This document shows, piece by piece, positions 5,030 through 20,970 of a stretch of 22,356 nucleotides of DNA (position 1 is its first letter; every line of letters begins with the position of its first letter). The translations under genes and the position numbers were made by a program. Source of the stretch: a virus; the IMG/VR virus record IMGVR_UViG_3300032265_002214, positions 1 to 22,356 of that record; one strand, given 5' to 3'. The notes beneath the pieces are model-generated. The model worked only from the letters and a program-made list of their open reading frames with translations. It was not told where the DNA came from and made no database searches.

Positions 5030-5539
5030 ATGCGCCTAGATCAATTCGGTAATCCCATTTTTAATTCAGTAGATATATTCAAATTCCTTTATCAAGGAAA
5101 ACTTACCAACCTCAAAGATATCACAGTAGATTATAATGATGATATTGAACAGTTGGAACAAACTGCTGGGTTTACCTTTCAACGATTTAATGAACAATTA
5201 CAATCTATTGATATAGCAGATTTTGATCAAGCATTACAAAGCGATTGGTTTATGCCTCCCGAGTATAAAGATTTTGATGTAGAAAAATGGTGCTTGGACA
5301 AATGTACTACACAAGAACAAATTGGCCGCGTCAATGCAGAATTAGATGCATTTAAAGAACGAGGAATGATTCCACTACTACAATGGACCAAACATTTTGT
5401 AGATACTTGCAATTCTAATGGTATCGTTTGGGGAGTAGGCCGAGGATCAAGTGTGGCAAGTTTTGTATTATACTTATTGGGTGTACATCAAATAGATTCA
5501 GTAAAATATAATTTAGACTGGCAGGAATTCCTGAGATAA
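5030..5539 (+). CDS. DnaE-like fragment: stand-alone piece of the DNA polymerase III alpha palm, lacking the catalytic aspartates
   Basis: A 169-residue protein whose last 60 residues match bacterial DNA polymerase III alpha (C-family). IPLLQWTKHFVD leads to NGIVWGVGRGSS (GRGSS at about 137-141), then VLYLLGVHQIDSVKYN and WQEFLR. In full-length DnaE this segment runs directly into the P-E-R-V-S-M-P-D-x-D block that carries two catalytic Asp residues. Here the frame stops right after FLR, and the downstream sequence does not resume the domain. The N-terminal 110 residues are not recognised. Polymerase activity is therefore not expected from this protein alone. It could bind nucleotide or DNA, modulate the host replisome, or be a decaying remnant. 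No good ribosome-binding site precedes the ATG. The gene lies 10 bases after its neighbour. Confidence 0.7.
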   Translation: MRLDQFGNPIFNSVDIFKFLYQGKLTNLKDITVDYNDDIEQLEQTAGFTFQRFNEQLQSIDIADFDQALQSDWFMPPEYKDFDVEKWCLDKCTTQEQIGRVNAELDAFKERGMIPLLQWTKHFVDTCNSNGIVWGVGRGSSVASFVLYLLGVHQIDSVKYNLDWQEFLR

Positions 5540-15940: not shown

Positions 15941-16315
15941 ATGCGTATAAATGAACTATTAGAGGGCAAAATCTTCAATGATTTGGACTTCGTATCACAT
16001 AAACAAGATGGCAAACGAGAGATCAATTACGATCTTGCAGAAGACCTAGTACATTTCATGAATCAGGACGATCATGTTTACAGACGTATCGTACACCCAA
16101 CTATTTCAAAATTTATAGATCTTAGAGATGCTAAAAAACAAGTTAGTCCTAAAATATTCAAATCCGCAGTAGAAGAATGTTATAAGCAATATATCAAACA
16201 TTTTCCTATTAGAGAGCTTCCGGACGAGATTGACGAAGAAATGTGTCGTCAAGTCTGCGATAAAATGTACGAAGACGTTACTCAAGACCACTCTGATGGC
16301 ACGTACAAGGACTAA
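15941..16315 (+). CDS. Small tagged phage protein, putative internal head protein
   Basis: A 124-residue protein. The N-terminus MRINELLEGKIF resembles a T4 capsid-targeting peptide (T4 internal proteins begin MKTYQEFIAEA), and L-L-E|G fits the gp21 protease consensus (I/L)xE|(A/G). The rest is helical and charged, with YDLAEDLVHFMNQDDHVYRR and FPIRELPDEIDEEMCRQVCDKMY. I associate this FPIRxLPDE pattern with hypothetical proteins of T4-like aquatic phages. A late-promoter-like element lies upstream. The next gene starts two bases after its stop. The packaging role is inferred from the tag only. Confidence 0.7.
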   Translation: MRINELLEGKIFNDLDFVSHKQDGKREINYDLAEDLVHFMNQDDHVYRRIVHPTISKFIDLRDAKKQVSPKIFKSAVEECYKQYIKHFPIRELPDEIDEEMCRQVCDKMYEDVTQDHSDGTYKD

Positions 16316-16317
16316 CT

Positions 16318-19317
16318 ATGTTCCTTCGTGAACTATTTGTAAATCCTAAAAAGCCGTTGGTAGAAGCCAACCTCACTATGTTTACTGATCTAGAGCCGTT
16401 TGACCAGGAAATTGCCGACGACTTAGCTAGAGAAGTTTCTCGATATACTAGCGGATTAGGCAAGCATATAGTTGTTTATAAAACGGGAAGCGCAGCCAAT
16501 CCAACTCCTGGAAAATTCAGCAATGATTTAGATCTAATGATGGACTTGGGTCATCTTATGAAAGTTTTTGGAACTACTGACGGTAAAACTACAAGAGCGG
16601 CTCTCGAACAACATTTACAAAGTCAAGGGCTTGAAACCAAAAAAGCCGGGAGCGAAGTACATTTTAAATTACCATACAACGGTAAGTTTTATCAAGGCGG
16701 TATAAAAGTTGTTGCACATGCAGAGCATGTACACAAAATGCATGTACATAGTATTCCACATGGTAGTCCATACAAAGGTGTCCACAAACAAGTATTCCTA
16801 AGTACATTAGCAAGTAAATTAGGTATGCTATATAGCCCCGACGAAGGATTATATGCAAGAGATGCTGATGGGAAAAAATCTAATTTTATTACATACAATT
16901 TAGATGAGATTGCTAAACGTCTTTTGAATCCTAATGCAACTGCTAAAGATTTAGGTAGCATAGAAAGTATAATGGCGGCAGTTCCAGATCAAGAACTTAG
17001 AAATGAAGTTTTACAACGTGCGAGTGAAGGACCTAGTTGGAAAACTACTCCTCCAAAAACATTATCCGAGGCCACCGCGCCATCGGTGGGTCGTAAGTAT
17101 CAACACATTGAAGATTTAGTATTCACTAATGGTAGTGTCGGTGGATTGCATGCCGTAGAACGCTTACGTCATATGACCACTAAAGGTAAAGGTATAGAAT
17201 TAAAATGGGATGGTAGTCCTGTAGTATACTGGGGACGAGACGAACACGGTGTGTTCCATATGTTTCCAAAAAATGCATGGGATTATATAAAGCGTGGTAC
17301 AACACACACTAAGAGTGGCGTGAGTACGATGATGAACGACCCTGATGATGTGATGCAATTTATACTTGGCACTGGGAAGACAGAGCCAGGCAAAGAAGCA
17401 CAGCGTTCTTCATACGCACAAGGACTTGCAGAGTTATGGCCATACTTTGAGTCAATCAGCCCCGATTCTGGTTTTTTAGAAGGCGGTATCTTATTCAGTC
17501 CAATGCAACCTCCTGTATTAAACCCTACTACTGGCGATTGGGATTTTACTCCTAATATAACTAGTTTCCACATTCCTTCGAACAGTGATTTAGGTAAACG
17601 TATTGGAAAAGCAAAAGTTATGGTTGCGGCCACAGGGCATTACACACATATTGGTAGTGAAGAAGGTCGTTATGCTAATGCCGAACAACTAAGTAGTCCT
17701 GATGTGATTGTACAAGGTACAACTTATGTAGAACATGCTCCTAAGATTGACCATGCTGGGTTAGATCATGCAGAAACATATATTAAAAAGAATAAAGCAA
17801 TCATTGATAGTTTTGTTGCTGGTCAGCCTGGATTAACTAATCCCGGCGATAAGCTATACACATTCTTTAACCAAAAATTACGTGTAGCAGGAGTTAAACA
17901 ACAGTTTGTTGACTGGGCTAATAGTACACTCAGTGCCGGGCAAGCACAAAAATTAACCAGTCATCCTGGTTTAGATGCAGTACTAACTGCTGTAGAGATG
18001 CTGACTAGTGAAAAGATGAAAGTGATTGCCGCATTAAGTAGTGGTACACACGGTGGTATTAGACAAACTAAACCCGAAGGCTATGTACAAGCACATCCCG
18101 GCGGTAAGTTTAAGAATGATTTACCTGGACAGTTTGTTAAAACTATTGACCAAGCTAACTGGGCACCACGTAAAGATAATATTCAAGAGAATATTAATCG
18201 TACCGGCGAAGGTAAAGCCGCTGTAGTTGGGTGGGGTCGCGGGATGGGCCACAAGGGACACATGTATTTGGCCAGTAGTGTAATTACACAGGCTTCCGAA
18301 ACTGGGGCAGATCCATACTTTGTTGTAAGTCGTACTGTAGGAAAAGACGATCCGATTACTCCAGACGAAAAAATGCAAATCTATCGCAAAGTATTTCCTA
18401 AACACGGACATATATTTCATACTGCGACAGACGAAATGCCCGATTTAACTCGTGTACTAACACAATTAGATAAACATGGATACACTGACGTAGTTGTAGT
18501 CGTAGGCGAAGATCAAAAACATGCTCTAAGTTATGTTACACAATACAATGGGAGACCTAATAAAGCAGGCGAGATTCCGTTTACCTTTAACAGTTTGAAT
18601 GTTATTAGTCGTCAAGAAACTAATGACCCTAGCAAAGATGAAGAAGGGCCACGTGCTACACCTATGCGCCAAGTGTTGACTGACCCGGAAGGTTTTAAAG
18701 CAGAGAATCCAGATTATGCTAATATGCCTACTAAACAAATGCAGTTTGCAGTATGGCGAGATTCTATGGACTCGCAAATTAGTGACGAAGAAGTTTTAGA
18801 TTTGATGCACAAAGCACAGCAACGCATGAGTGACCCTACCTTTGGAAAAGCACCAAAGAAAGCCAAGCCTGTAAAGGAGAATTTGGTTAAATATGCTAAT
18901 AAGGTAATAAGAGAAATGAGAGCTAAAGAATTCGTTGTTGAAGGTCACCCAAATGCAGGAACAGGGCATACTACTGAGCTAGCTACCGATCATGATAATG
19001 TAATGAAAGGTGCAAGTCGTAGCCGTGACATTGGCGGATATGATCGTGTATATCATATGAATCGTTTAATGATGGCCATGGCCATGCATGACGGTAAAGG
19101 TCCTCATCCTGTAGACAGTGCTAAAGATACTTGGTTTGAAAAGTATAATACGATGCATCCAATGACTCAAGAAGAAGACAATATGATCCGTGGTGCTATG
19201 AAAACTGTTCCAACAGATGGAAAACATGTCAGCAAATTTGCCAAGAGTGAAGAAGCTGAAGGCATTAATATGGTAAGCCCAGTTGCCAAGCCTAAAAAGA
19301 ACAAGTACGGAATATAA
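16318..19317 (+). CDS. Multidomain nucleotidyltransferase protein with capsid-targeting-like tag (possible packaged polyprotein)
   Basis: A 999-residue protein with four modules. (a) Residues 1-16: tag FLRELFVNPKKPLVE. (b) About 17-251: polymerase-beta-type nucleotidyltransferase pattern, G57-S58 then D70-x-D72. (c) About 252-624: ligase-like module with K296-W-D-G299, the covalent nucleotidyltransferase motif KxDG, preceded by YQHIEDLVF and followed by LEGGILFSP. (d) About 625-854: HIGH-superfamily adenylyl/cytidylyltransferase pattern WGRGMGHKGH (639-648), then a K-M-x(5)-V-FPKH segment. (e) 867-999: an internal MRAKEFVVEG tag and a module duplicated in the next gene. gp21-like (L/V/I)xE sites mark each joint (LVE|A at 14-17, LSE|A at 249-252, IQE|N at 622-625, VKE|N at 852-855, VVE|G at 873-876). 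Module activities are by motif only; (c) is the least certain. Confidence 0.75.
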   Translation: MFLRELFVNPKKPLVEANLTMFTDLEPFDQEIADDLAREVSRYTSGLGKHIVVYKTGSAANPTPGKFSNDLDLMMDLGHLMKVFGTTDGKTTRAALEQHLQSQGLETKKAGSEVHFKLPYNGKFYQGGIKVVAHAEHVHKMHVHSIPHGSPYKGVHKQVFLSTLASKLGMLYSPDEGLYARDADGKKSNFITYNLDEIAKRLLNPNATAKDLGSIESIMAAVPDQELRNEVLQRASEGPSWKTTPPKTLSEATAPSVGRKYQHIEDLVFTNGSVGGLHAVERLRHMTTKGKGIELKWDGSPVVYWGRDEHGVFHMFPKNAWDYIKRGTTHTKSGVSTMMNDPDDVMQFILGTGKTEPGKEAQRSSYAQGLAELWPYFESISPDSGFLEGGILFSPMQPPVLNPTTGDWDFTPNITSFHIPSNSDLGKRIGKAKVMVAATGHYTHIGSEEGRYANAEQLSSPDVIVQGTTYVEHAPKIDHAGLDHAETYIKKNKAIIDSFVAGQPGLTNPGDKLYTFFNQKLRVAGVKQQFVDWANSTLSAGQAQKLTSHPGLDAVLTAVEMLTSEKMKVIAALSSGTHGGIRQTKPEGYVQAHPGGKFKNDLPGQFVKTIDQANWAPRKDNIQENINRTGEGKAAVVGWGRGMGHKGHMYLASSVITQASETGADPYFVVSRTVGKDDPITPDEKMQIYRKVFPKHGHIFHTATDEMPDLTRVLTQLDKHGYTDVVVVVGEDQKHALSYVTQYNGRPNKAGEIPFTFNSLNVISRQETNDPSKDEEGPRATPMRQVLTDPEGFKAENPDYANMPTKQMQFAVWRDSMDSQISDEEVLDLMHKAQQRMSDPTFGKAPKKAKPVKENLVKYANKVIREMRAKEFVVEGHPNAGTGHTTELATDHDNVMKGASRSRDIGGYDRVYHMNRLMMAMAMHDGKGPHPVDSAKDTWFEKYNTMHPMTQEEDNMIRGAMKTVPTDGKHVSKFAKSEEAEGINMVSPVAKPKKNKYGI

Positions 19318-19318
19318 T

Positions 19319-19789
19319 ATGCGAGCTAAAGAATTCTTATCAGAACAAAATGGCAAGGCAGTTATATACAAGGCTAAGAAATTTACTCACGGCAAACTCG
19401 GTGTGCCTAACGATCCTCTAGAAGCTCATAATACTCATAGCCGTTCACAAGATGCTAACGAATACGGTACATATCGCGACAAATTAAATCCCGAGCAAGA
19501 ATTAGTAATGCGTGGTGCAATTGGCGTACCAAATGAAAACCCTTATGATTTATACCGATTAGGTATGGCTATTGCAGGTGGCGATCGCAACATCCCAGGT
19601 GTAGATGCGCTAGGACAAACTGGATTAATCTTGCCATTCAGTGAACAAGAGCATCAAACTATTAATGCACATATTAGACGTCAGGGACTGAAAGCAGAAA
19701 AACTTAGTACACACGGCAGTGAAGAACCTTTGCAGAATAATAAGGTCAGTCCTGTAGCTAAAATTAAAAAGAATAAGTACGGTATATAA
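19319..19789 (+). CDS. Tagged protein, paralogue of the C-terminal module of the preceding gene
   Basis: A 156-residue protein beginning MRAKEFLSEQ and ending VSPVAKIKKNKYGI. The preceding gene has MRAKEFVVEG at residue 867 and ends VSPVAKPKKNKYGI. Between the ends both contain a body with a RGA(I/M)...P pattern (LVMRGAIGVPNENP here, NMIRGAMKTVPTD there) and HxTxS/D-type polar stretches. I prefer the start at 19319 over the in-frame ATG at 19283. It gives the shared tag and avoids a 12-residue extension overlapping the upstream gene. The tag suggests head packaging. The stop overlaps the Dps-like start (TAATG). Function is unknown. Confidence 0.75.
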   Translation: MRAKEFLSEQNGKAVIYKAKKFTHGKLGVPNDPLEAHNTHSRSQDANEYGTYRDKLNPEQELVMRGAIGVPNENPYDLYRLGMAIAGGDRNIPGVDALGQTGLILPFSEQEHQTINAHIRRQGLKAEKLSTHGSEEPLQNNKVSPVAKIKKNKYGI

Positions 19790-20238
19790 TGGAACATAAC
19801 AAATATCATCTTGCTATTAAATCTGCTTTTGCTAGCGAATTTGCATTTTATTTAAAAGCACATAACTTTCATTGGAATGTAGAAGGTATTCATTTCCGCG
19901 AACTGCACGATTTGTTTGGAACAATTTACGAAGAAGTATTTGAAAGCATAGATCCATTTGCAGAAAAGATACGTGCCATGGGTGCATATACTCCTGCAAG
20001 TTTGCAAAAGTTTAGTATGCTAAGTCAGCTAGACGATGAAAATGATATACTACCTCCAGAACAAATGGTTGCAGAATTGCTAGCAGACAGCGAAAAAATG
20101 GCGGAAATATTCCGTGTGACATTTGACATGGCCGAAGGTGCTGGCGATCATGGTCTCAGTAACTTCTTGGCAGACCGTCAAGATGCACACAAAAAACACT
20201 GCTGGCAACTACGTGCCACACTAAAGCACTATGGATGA
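19789..20238 (+). CDS. dps: Dps-family ferritin-like protein
   Basis: A 149-residue protein with the Dps signature HNFHWNVEGIHFRELHDLF, then DPFAEKIRAMG, and a C-terminal LADRQDAHKKHCWQLRATL helix. Ferroxidase ligands align with E. coli Dps as H28 (H51), H40 (H63), D55 (D78) and E59 (E82). The position of D67 is Gly44, so one ligand side chain appears missing. Dps forms 12-subunit shells that oxidise iron with peroxide and can bind DNA. Here the N-terminus is short and has only a few basic residues. It lacks the capsid tag of its neighbours but is co-translated with them (TAATG start; 8-base overlap with the next gene). It could protect phage or host DNA from oxidation. Confidence 0.9.
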   Translation: MEHNKYHLAIKSAFASEFAFYLKAHNFHWNVEGIHFRELHDLFGTIYEEVFESIDPFAEKIRAMGAYTPASLQKFSMLSQLDDENDILPPEQMVAELLADSEKMAEIFRVTFDMAEGAGDHGLSNFLADRQDAHKKHCWQLRATLKHYG

Positions 20239-20467
20239 ACTTGCCAGAATACGTAAATTAGCAGGTATAACAGAATACAAAGGTATGATGCCCTATGCCG
20301 GCAGTAATATAAGTATTACAGGCACAGAAAAAAAGATTATAGAACGCGAGCAGAACATACAACCCGGAACAGAGGAATGGTTTAAACTATGGTTCAGTTT
20401 ACCTAAATTCATGGGCGGAGAACATCCTGTAGTTCAGCATAGTCCAGGATTCAGGAGTAGGAAATGA
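20231..20467 (+). CDS. Small phage protein with an RIRKLAGI-type N-terminus
   Basis: A 78-residue protein beginning MDELARIRKLAGITEYKG. I associate this amphipathic opening with several small proteins of T4-like aquatic phages, and it may be another targeting or interaction tag. The remainder (EEWFKLWFSLPKFMGGEHP) has no known motif. It overlaps the Dps-like gene by 8 bases and the next start by 4 (ATGA), so it is tightly coupled. Function is unknown. Confidence 0.65.
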   Translation: MDELARIRKLAGITEYKGMMPYAGSNISITGTEKKIIEREQNIQPGTEEWFKLWFSLPKFMGGEHPVVQHSPGFRSRK

Positions 20468-20970
20468 AATTAAAAGAATTGTTTAAGGAAAGTGGTTATA
20501 ATCATGGCCATGCTGATCCACGAGCTCCACAGCTGGGATCAGATGAAAAGCGTGACCGCAAACGTGCAGAACTACAACACGAACTTGGACATGAAACCAA
20601 CAATATTGCAATCGCCATCAATGGTAAAACTTGGAAGGTTGTTCCATGCAAAGGCTATGCAGACAGCCGAGAAGAGCGCGAGTACTTGCAACATATGAAA
20701 AACTGGGCCGAGAGGAAATCGGCAAGTTCGGGCAAAAAGTGGTCTGTGCATCTAACAGGTGCACCTATTACTGAATCAGCAAGTGCAGGTGCTACTAGTT
20801 CAGCCAGTATAGCTACTGTGGTCAATCCAGATTACGCAAATAATGCCAATAAAAAGCCTGTAAAAAGCGTTAATGCGCTAGATCAAGACGAAGTGAGCCT
20901 GTTTGGCACACCAATGGAAACTGTGAAAAGTGCGTCCGGTAAGAAAGCCGCTATAATCAAAAGACGCTAA
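20464..20970 (+). CDS. Tagged small phage protein, putative internal head protein
   Basis: A 168-residue basic protein beginning MKLKELFKESG, the same (R/K)xxE(L/F)(L/F)xE tag pattern as nearby genes. A central domain (about 45-95: NIAIAINGKTWKVVPCKGY, then EREYLQHMKNWAERK and KKWSVHLTG) looks like a compact beta-alpha-beta fold. The C-terminal 65 residues are low-complexity Ser/Ala/Asn with a basic end (KAAIIKRR). I-T-E|S after the central domain could be a second processing site. The start overlaps the upstream stop (ATGA). Function is unknown. Confidence 0.7.
   Translation: MKLKELFKESGYNHGHADPRAPQLGSDEKRDRKRAELQHELGHETNNIAIAINGKTWKVVPCKGYADSREEREYLQHMKNWAERKSASSGKKWSVHLTGAPITESASAGATSSASIATVVNPDYANNANKKPVKSVNALDQDEVSLFGTPMETVKSASGKKAAIIKRR

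Follow-up and report, generated by a model that had tools for sequence, protein, structure and literature searches.

The internal proteins IPI-III and Alt of phage T4 carry a short N-terminal leader, the capsid-targeting sequence (CTS), which ends in (L/I)xE↓A (an arrow marks an actual or candidate cleavage site), and they are matured by gp21, an S77 prohead protease, and enter the host together with the phage DNA. Both the CTS and gp21 cleavage after L/I-x-E have been described (PMC9026906). For polyvalent proteins, in which several catalytic domains share one chain, packaging and injection have likewise been proposed (Iyer et al. 2017, PMC5512222). Release of their domains by an embedded metallopeptidase is common, but not universal.

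The locus described here lies in a window of 22,356 nt, the whole stretch of viral DNA that was analysed (positions 1-22,356 of IMG/VR record IMGVR_UViG_3300032265_002214), and it combines features of both systems. A single open frame on the plus strand (16318..19317) encodes a 999-aa chain of four parts in the order M1 (DNA-polymerase-X-like nucleotidyltransferase), M2 (DUF6267, RNA-ligase-like), M3 (HIGH-type nucleotidylyltransferase) and T (a small tail module) (Table 1). As in IPI-III and Alt, there is a short N-terminal leader with a terminal cleavage motif, and entry into the host with the DNA is proposed here as well; but whereas the T4 proteins consist of one leader and one mature domain, the window chain joins unrelated enzymes and has a candidate site at each joint. 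The parallel with Alt drawn in the initial annotation is best kept as an analogy only. Like polyvalent proteins, the chain holds several unrelated catalytic domains, and the RelA/SpoT-type and acetyltransferase domains of that group recur as extra cargo in relatives of the window. Its PolX-like, DUF6267 and HIGH modules are, in contrast, unlike polyvalent cargo, and the head protease rather than an embedded peptidase would do the cutting; no peptidase domain was found in the chain in Pfam or NCBIfam scans.

Table 1. Features of the 999-aa reading frame and of neighbouring genes, in window positions
Feature	Position	Strand	Remarks
Small neighbour gene	15941..16315	+	like leader, MRINELLE↓GKIF
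N-terminal leader MFLRELFVNPKKPLVE (cut after last residue)	16318..16365	+	residues 1-16; T4-CTS-like tag ending LVE↓A
M1, family-X DNA-polymerase-like nucleotidyltransferase	16366..17070	+	residues 17-251; GS57-58, D70, D72
M1-M2 joint, LSE↓A (E251), disordered linker	17062..17073	+	pLDDT <50 at 248-258
M2, DUF6267, RNA-ligase-like motifs	17071..18189	+	residues 252-624; Pfam DUF6267 E 1.2e-14
M2-M3 joint, IQE↓N (E624)	18181..18192	+	617-623 and 620-624 at pLDDT <50
M3, HIGH-type nucleotidylyltransferase	18190..18879	+	residues 625-854; GMGHKGH 642-648
Internal tag NLVKYANKVIREMRAKEFVVE (cut after last residue)	18880..18942	+	residues 855-875, between VKE↓N and VVE↓G
T, tail module ending SPVAKPKKNKYGI	18943..19317	+	residues 876-999
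Free-standing tail paralogue	19319..19789	+	MRAKEFLSE↓QNG...KKNKYGI
Neighbour gene	20464..20970	+	like leader, MKLKELFKE↓SGYN

A search of viral contigs gave eighty relatives for the whole protein as query, and further ones for profiles of M1 and M2. By module HMMs, the four-part fusion is present in the window and in contigs L001, L002 and L003; since samples of different origin yielded contigs with this same fusion (L002 and L003, 80-86% identity), it is not an assembly error. Other arrangements comprise M1, M2 or M3 alone, M1-M2, M3-T, M2-M3, M1-M2-M3 and M2-x-M1. In most relatives the cassette consists of separate genes split exactly at the joints of the window, namely M1-M2 (about 618-638 aa, with the C-terminal end QANWAPRKD) and M3-T, and in L074-L080 M1, M2 and M3 are three separate genes. 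Modules encoded separately, many of them behind a T4-CTS-like leader, are what the initial annotation had suggested looking for.

Its proposal of three nucleotidyltransferase-type modules followed by a tagged tail is likewise borne out by the motifs and, for M1 (pol X) and M3 (HIGH-type), by nucleotidyltransferase folds seen in AlphaFold2 models and structure comparison, with rows from annotated phage records left out of the modelling input. M1 has the pol-beta palm fold with GS...DxD, as judged from model and alignments; its best Foldseek match in the PDB is pol lambda (E 6.2e-6, probability 1.00), and VIA aligned it with pol beta (Z 12.9, rmsd 3.3, 176 aligned). HMMER profiles of M1 and M2 gave no convincing match among PDB sequences. 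M1 shares fold and GS...DxD with the family X DNA polymerases pol beta and pol lambda, but it is only about 10-19% identical to them, and the clade of the window lacks the third catalytic Asp. The M1 alignment shows no variation at D70 and D72, but this third position (residue 128, window 16699-16701) is Gly in the window and its close relatives L001, L004-L006 and L030 and Asp in most other M1. M1 of the window's clade may be catalytically dead. In two relatives (L252:3938-6907 and L257:590-3526) a single chain unites M2, another nucleotidyltransferase-like domain (GSAGYY...GDIDVMV) and M1, and its joints read IDE↓GG and LITE↓GG.

M3 adopts a Rossmann-type fold with (H/T)xGH, modelled at pLDDT mostly >90. 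PHROG 3041 'cytidyltransferase' matches residues 620-839 (E 3.7e-19), and PF01467 is found in M3 homologues. Foldseek gave no significant match with the M3-T model alone, whereas VIA of M3 matched PPAT (Z 11.5, rmsd 2.9, 147 aligned) and the NMN adenylyltransferase NadM (Z 11.1, rmsd 3.6, 162 aligned). Several M3 genes of relatives have an extra C-terminal domain: SpoT-like HD in L233:5125-8124, cytidine-deaminase/RibD-like in L078:7122-9371 and L072:7119-10727, and acetyltransferase in L228:5146-6906, with a ParB-like domain also found among this set. The C-terminal parts of L233, L228 and L219 contain a repeated linker-like QGVAE↓G/A between segments, which looks like further cleavage sites.

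M2 is less readily placed. DUF6267 is matched by 32 of 32 members, and across these diverse members K45, D47, G48, E336 and G337 (module numbering) are invariant; in the window the motifs read KWDGSP (296; KWDG at 296-299), LEGGIL (387) and EGYV (587), followed by a Lys. The order KxDG, EG(Y/F)V and downstream Lys is that of the T4 RNA ligase 1 family (RnlA), but M2 has no significant sequence match to this family, and its motifs III and IV are separated by a large helical insertion. In HH comparison with nine Rnl1-type ligases, the two best alignments fell, in the right sequence, on motif I and on motifs IV-V; the score was 23.5 against at most 19.1 in column shuffles, and the probability was low. 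Comparison of M2 with single ligases by hhalign gave no signal, and the structures listed by Foldseek and VIA were matches to the M1 domain. The ligase-like module of the initial annotation is upheld in its motif order only and lacks a statistically significant match. An apparent HH match of 99% between the M1 and M2 modules was dismissed as artefactual: it could be aligned in three different ways, one of them over 15 columns, each scoring 134-142. In G001 and G008 a canonical DNA ligase is encoded as well, which rules out M2 as the sole ligase of these phages.

What the enzymes might do is a question apart from packaging. Because the HH score of M2 is little above the shuffles, RNA repair is a lead and not a result, and a role in RNA repair, taken by itself, is put forward here only tentatively. 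The enzymes might instead repair gaps or nicks in the incoming DNA, with the polymerase-X and ligase modules acting on DNA rather than serving RNA repair or nucleotide supply. The best matches of M1, DNA polymerases lambda and beta, and the nucleotidyltransferase-ligase motifs of M2 would suit such a role, yet we regard it as rather unlikely: both motif I of M2 (KWDG-S/A/M-P) and the HH alignment, itself weak, suggest an RNA ligase of the T4 Rnl1 type, three DNA ligases scored only at shuffle level against M2, M1 of the window's clade is without the third Asp, and an ordinary DNA ligase is also present in two related jumbo contigs.

The leader of the window differs from the T4 form in having V at P3, and residues 9-18 are modelled at pLDDT <50. 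In each of the 101 unique M1-first genes, LxE↓(A/G/S/N) occurs within the first 33 aa. When encoded separately in relatives, the four unrelated modules share one type of leader: MLLRELFVNPKKSLLE↓GG for M1, MKIRELIIE↓AA and MRAIEFLTE↓AA for M2, MRLRQLFE↓NIN for M3 and MRAKEFIAE↓QNG for T. These leaders resemble the propeptide of T4 IpII, MKTYQEFIAE↓A, which matches T4 records exactly and is annotated as a 10-residue cleaved leader in X04567. A CTS-like pattern is matched by 61/101 unique M1 starts, 31/58 of M2, 18/76 of M3 and 31/39 of T, and by 38/464 other ORFs, with tagged genes among these too; as the pattern was written once the leaders were known, these counts are descriptive and are no test. 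The leader is not uniform. Many separate M3 genes start MLLREFLNRTG and lack a clean site, with the strict motif in only 24 of 76 separate starts; P1' of T leaders is mostly R, with the strict motif in only 3 of 39; and cyanophage M2 homologues have no tag. In many lineages the leader of separate M1 is just 5 residues long (MILNE↓GGN), so E-GGN may be kept for some other reason.

Tail modules form a family of variable small proteins (18943-19317 and 19319-19789 in the window) with up to 3 copies per locus, many ending SPVAKxKKNKYG(I/V). Separate tagged T genes of relatives (about 124 aa) align from residue 867 of the window chain onward, where the internal tag MRAKEFVVE↓G (residues 867-875) stands; MRAKEF is also the N-terminus of free-standing tail genes, and relatives with separate genes often have one more of these. 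Directly after the tail paralogue of the window lies a ferritin/Dps-like gene (19789-20238; Pfam Ferritin E 4.8e-23). The small gene at 20231-20467 has IR(K/R)LAG(I/L) at its N-terminus, and the motif also stands at the C-terminus of two proteins of relatives (G001:90124-91218 and G002:17659-18756) that adjoin gp21 and gp23 and are scaffold-like by position; the motif is perhaps a second type of head tag. Elsewhere in the window (5030-5539), a small protein with GRGSSVASFVLYLLG resembles a fragment of the bacterial DNA polymerase III alpha subunit.

The 999-aa protein contains six (L/I/V/M/F)xE↓(A/G/S/N) motifs against 3.8 expected in shuffles (P=0.17). Their number is thus unremarkable, and the signal lies in their position. 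Five of them, at E16, E251, E624, E854 and E875, stand between modules as the initial annotation had claimed, and a sixth that it did not list, E388 (FLE↓GG), is buried inside M2, in a core modelled at pLDDT of about 97, which shows that the motif by itself is no cleavage site. Residues modelled at pLDDT <50 number 41, and four of the six motifs lie among them (binomial P=4e-5); the count rises to five once residues 850-869, a weak stretch added by hand, are included.

Conservation of the joints was counted in non-redundant fusions (<80% identity), with other windows of the same proteins as the expectation. LxE is present in 22/22 M1-M2 linkers (3.4 expected; the strict form accounts for 19/22), 8/9 M2-M3 linkers (2.3 expected) and 26/26 M3-T linkers (5.6 expected), or 56 of 57 against 11.3 when the three joint types are pooled. 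Homologues uphold the joint sites, although common ancestry means that the 22 M1-M2 linkers are not 22 independent events. Joint sites are also kept in fusions that appear to have arisen separately, those of L066 and of L227/L230 (M1-M2-M3) and that of L252/L257 (M2-x-M1). The M1-M2 alignment shows a conserved Glu amid variable residues (QPINE↓AAAP, TPLLE↓ASAP, HLAE↓AAAP). At the position matching the M2-M3 joint, unfused relatives begin MRLRQLFE↓NINRTG; the site at 624 is kept only as a motif, since the many separate M3 genes that start MLLREFLN-RTG have no clean site there. The M2-M3 fusion of cyanophage S-PM2 has none at its joint. Of the leader, M1-M2 and M2-M3 fusions have mostly lost the targeting half and retained the tripeptide site, as would be expected because a polyprotein needs one tag only.

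A gp21-type (S77) prohead protease, the enzyme that matures IPI-III and Alt, is encoded by carriers of the cassette (large contigs G001, G002, G003, G008 and G009; cyanophages S-PM2 and P-HM1). This evidence comes from relatives; the window contig itself ends short of gp21. The major capsid protein of relatives has a candidate site, YLME↓SPT. According to Sullivan et al. (2010, PMC3037559), the putative cytidylyltransferase T4-GC190 was detected in purified S-SM1 virions. In S-SM1 this protein is SSM1_190, an M3 homologue (HMM E 1.3e-30) with a T4-like leader, MKKFSAFLNE↓AERS. The adjoining gene in the genome, T4-GC71 (DUF6267), is an untagged M2 homologue. The cyanophage pair is thus homologous to M3 and M2 of the window and neighbouring like them, but it consists of separate genes, with M2 untagged and M3 26% identical to that of the window. 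M1 was not found among five S-SM1 genes scanned, and the main text of the virion proteome papers on jumbo phages CBB and phAPEC6 contains no match to the modules.

On balance, the chain is probably best read as a head-packaged polyprotein of a T4-like phage that is cut apart by the head protease. The initial annotation had proposed such a polyprotein, split on head maturation. In its favor are the separable tagged modules, the joint sites, gp21 in relatives and the virion-detected, though distant, M3 homologue; the untagged M2 and siteless M2-M3 fusion of cyanophages and the R at P1' of most T leaders count against it. Packaging of this particular 999-aa protein is likely, and its cleavage and injection are probable predictions.

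The alternative that survives best accepts head targeting by the leader and holds that the chain is left whole or cut at its N-terminus only, the LxE at the joints being relics of leaders that the modules had when they were separate genes. The joints are clearly derived from gene starts, and almost all known prohead-protease cuts in T4 and SPN3US take off N- or C-terminal propeptides (PMC9026906, PMC10052503). Unneeded relics should, however, decay together, and the retention of the tripeptide in 22/22 M1-M2 and 8/9 M2-M3 linkers whose targeting half is lost counts against this account, which we consider unlikely. More improbable still is an ordinary intracellular multi-enzyme fusion, in which LxE arises by chance in flexible linkers and the leader serves another role, for instance in assembly or translation. 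The raw motif count, which is not above chance, and the cyanophage exceptions would fit; against them stand the enrichment at all three joint types, the single leader type, near the IpII propeptide, on four unrelated modules, and the detection of T4-GC190 in virions. Finally, production of the free tail from an internal start at M867 instead of by cutting, suggested by the in-frame ATG at 18916 and by free-standing tail genes with the same MRAKEF, is very improbable, as no good ribosome-binding site lies directly upstream of this ATG, several relatives have no Met there (e.g. ...ARSLRE↓GHGG in L046), and the other joints would be left unexplained.

If the chain is indeed a head-packaged polyprotein, its 16-residue leader would be the capsid-targeting sequence by which the 999 residues are brought into the prohead core. 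A gp21-type prohead protease would take off the leader and cut the disordered joints after E251, E624 and E854/E875, leaving polymerase-X-like, ligase-like and HIGH-type nucleotidylyltransferase domains and a small tail protein in the mature head. The released enzymes would enter the cell together with the phage DNA and would there most likely form an immediate kit for nucleic-acid end-joining or repair and nucleotide supply, most plausibly directed at RNA cut by host defence nucleases. With a leader that looks like a packaging tag and recognition sites of the head protease at the joints, the enzymes are likely to enter the head as one chain, to be separated there and to be delivered alongside the DNA.

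The pieces of this system are of known kinds, and it joins T4 capsid targeting to the principle of polyvalent proteins, each familiar by itself; a chain of several enzymes that is packed into the head and divided at its joints by the head protease nevertheless seems new, and no description of one was found in the open-licence literature. We lean towards regarding it as the first phage polyprotein in which different enzymes are separated inside the capsid, before delivery, by the head-maturation protease and not by an embedded peptidase, with relatives swapping cargo (SpoT-like HD hydrolase, deaminase, acetyltransferase) on the same platform. This would extend the T4 rule, by which gp21 trims a leader, to the loading of several enzymes into the head from one gene, and it would provide a readable code, leader plus LxE joints, with which injected proteins can be found in uncultured phages. 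DUF6267, a Pfam family without a function, would thereby gain a testable role.
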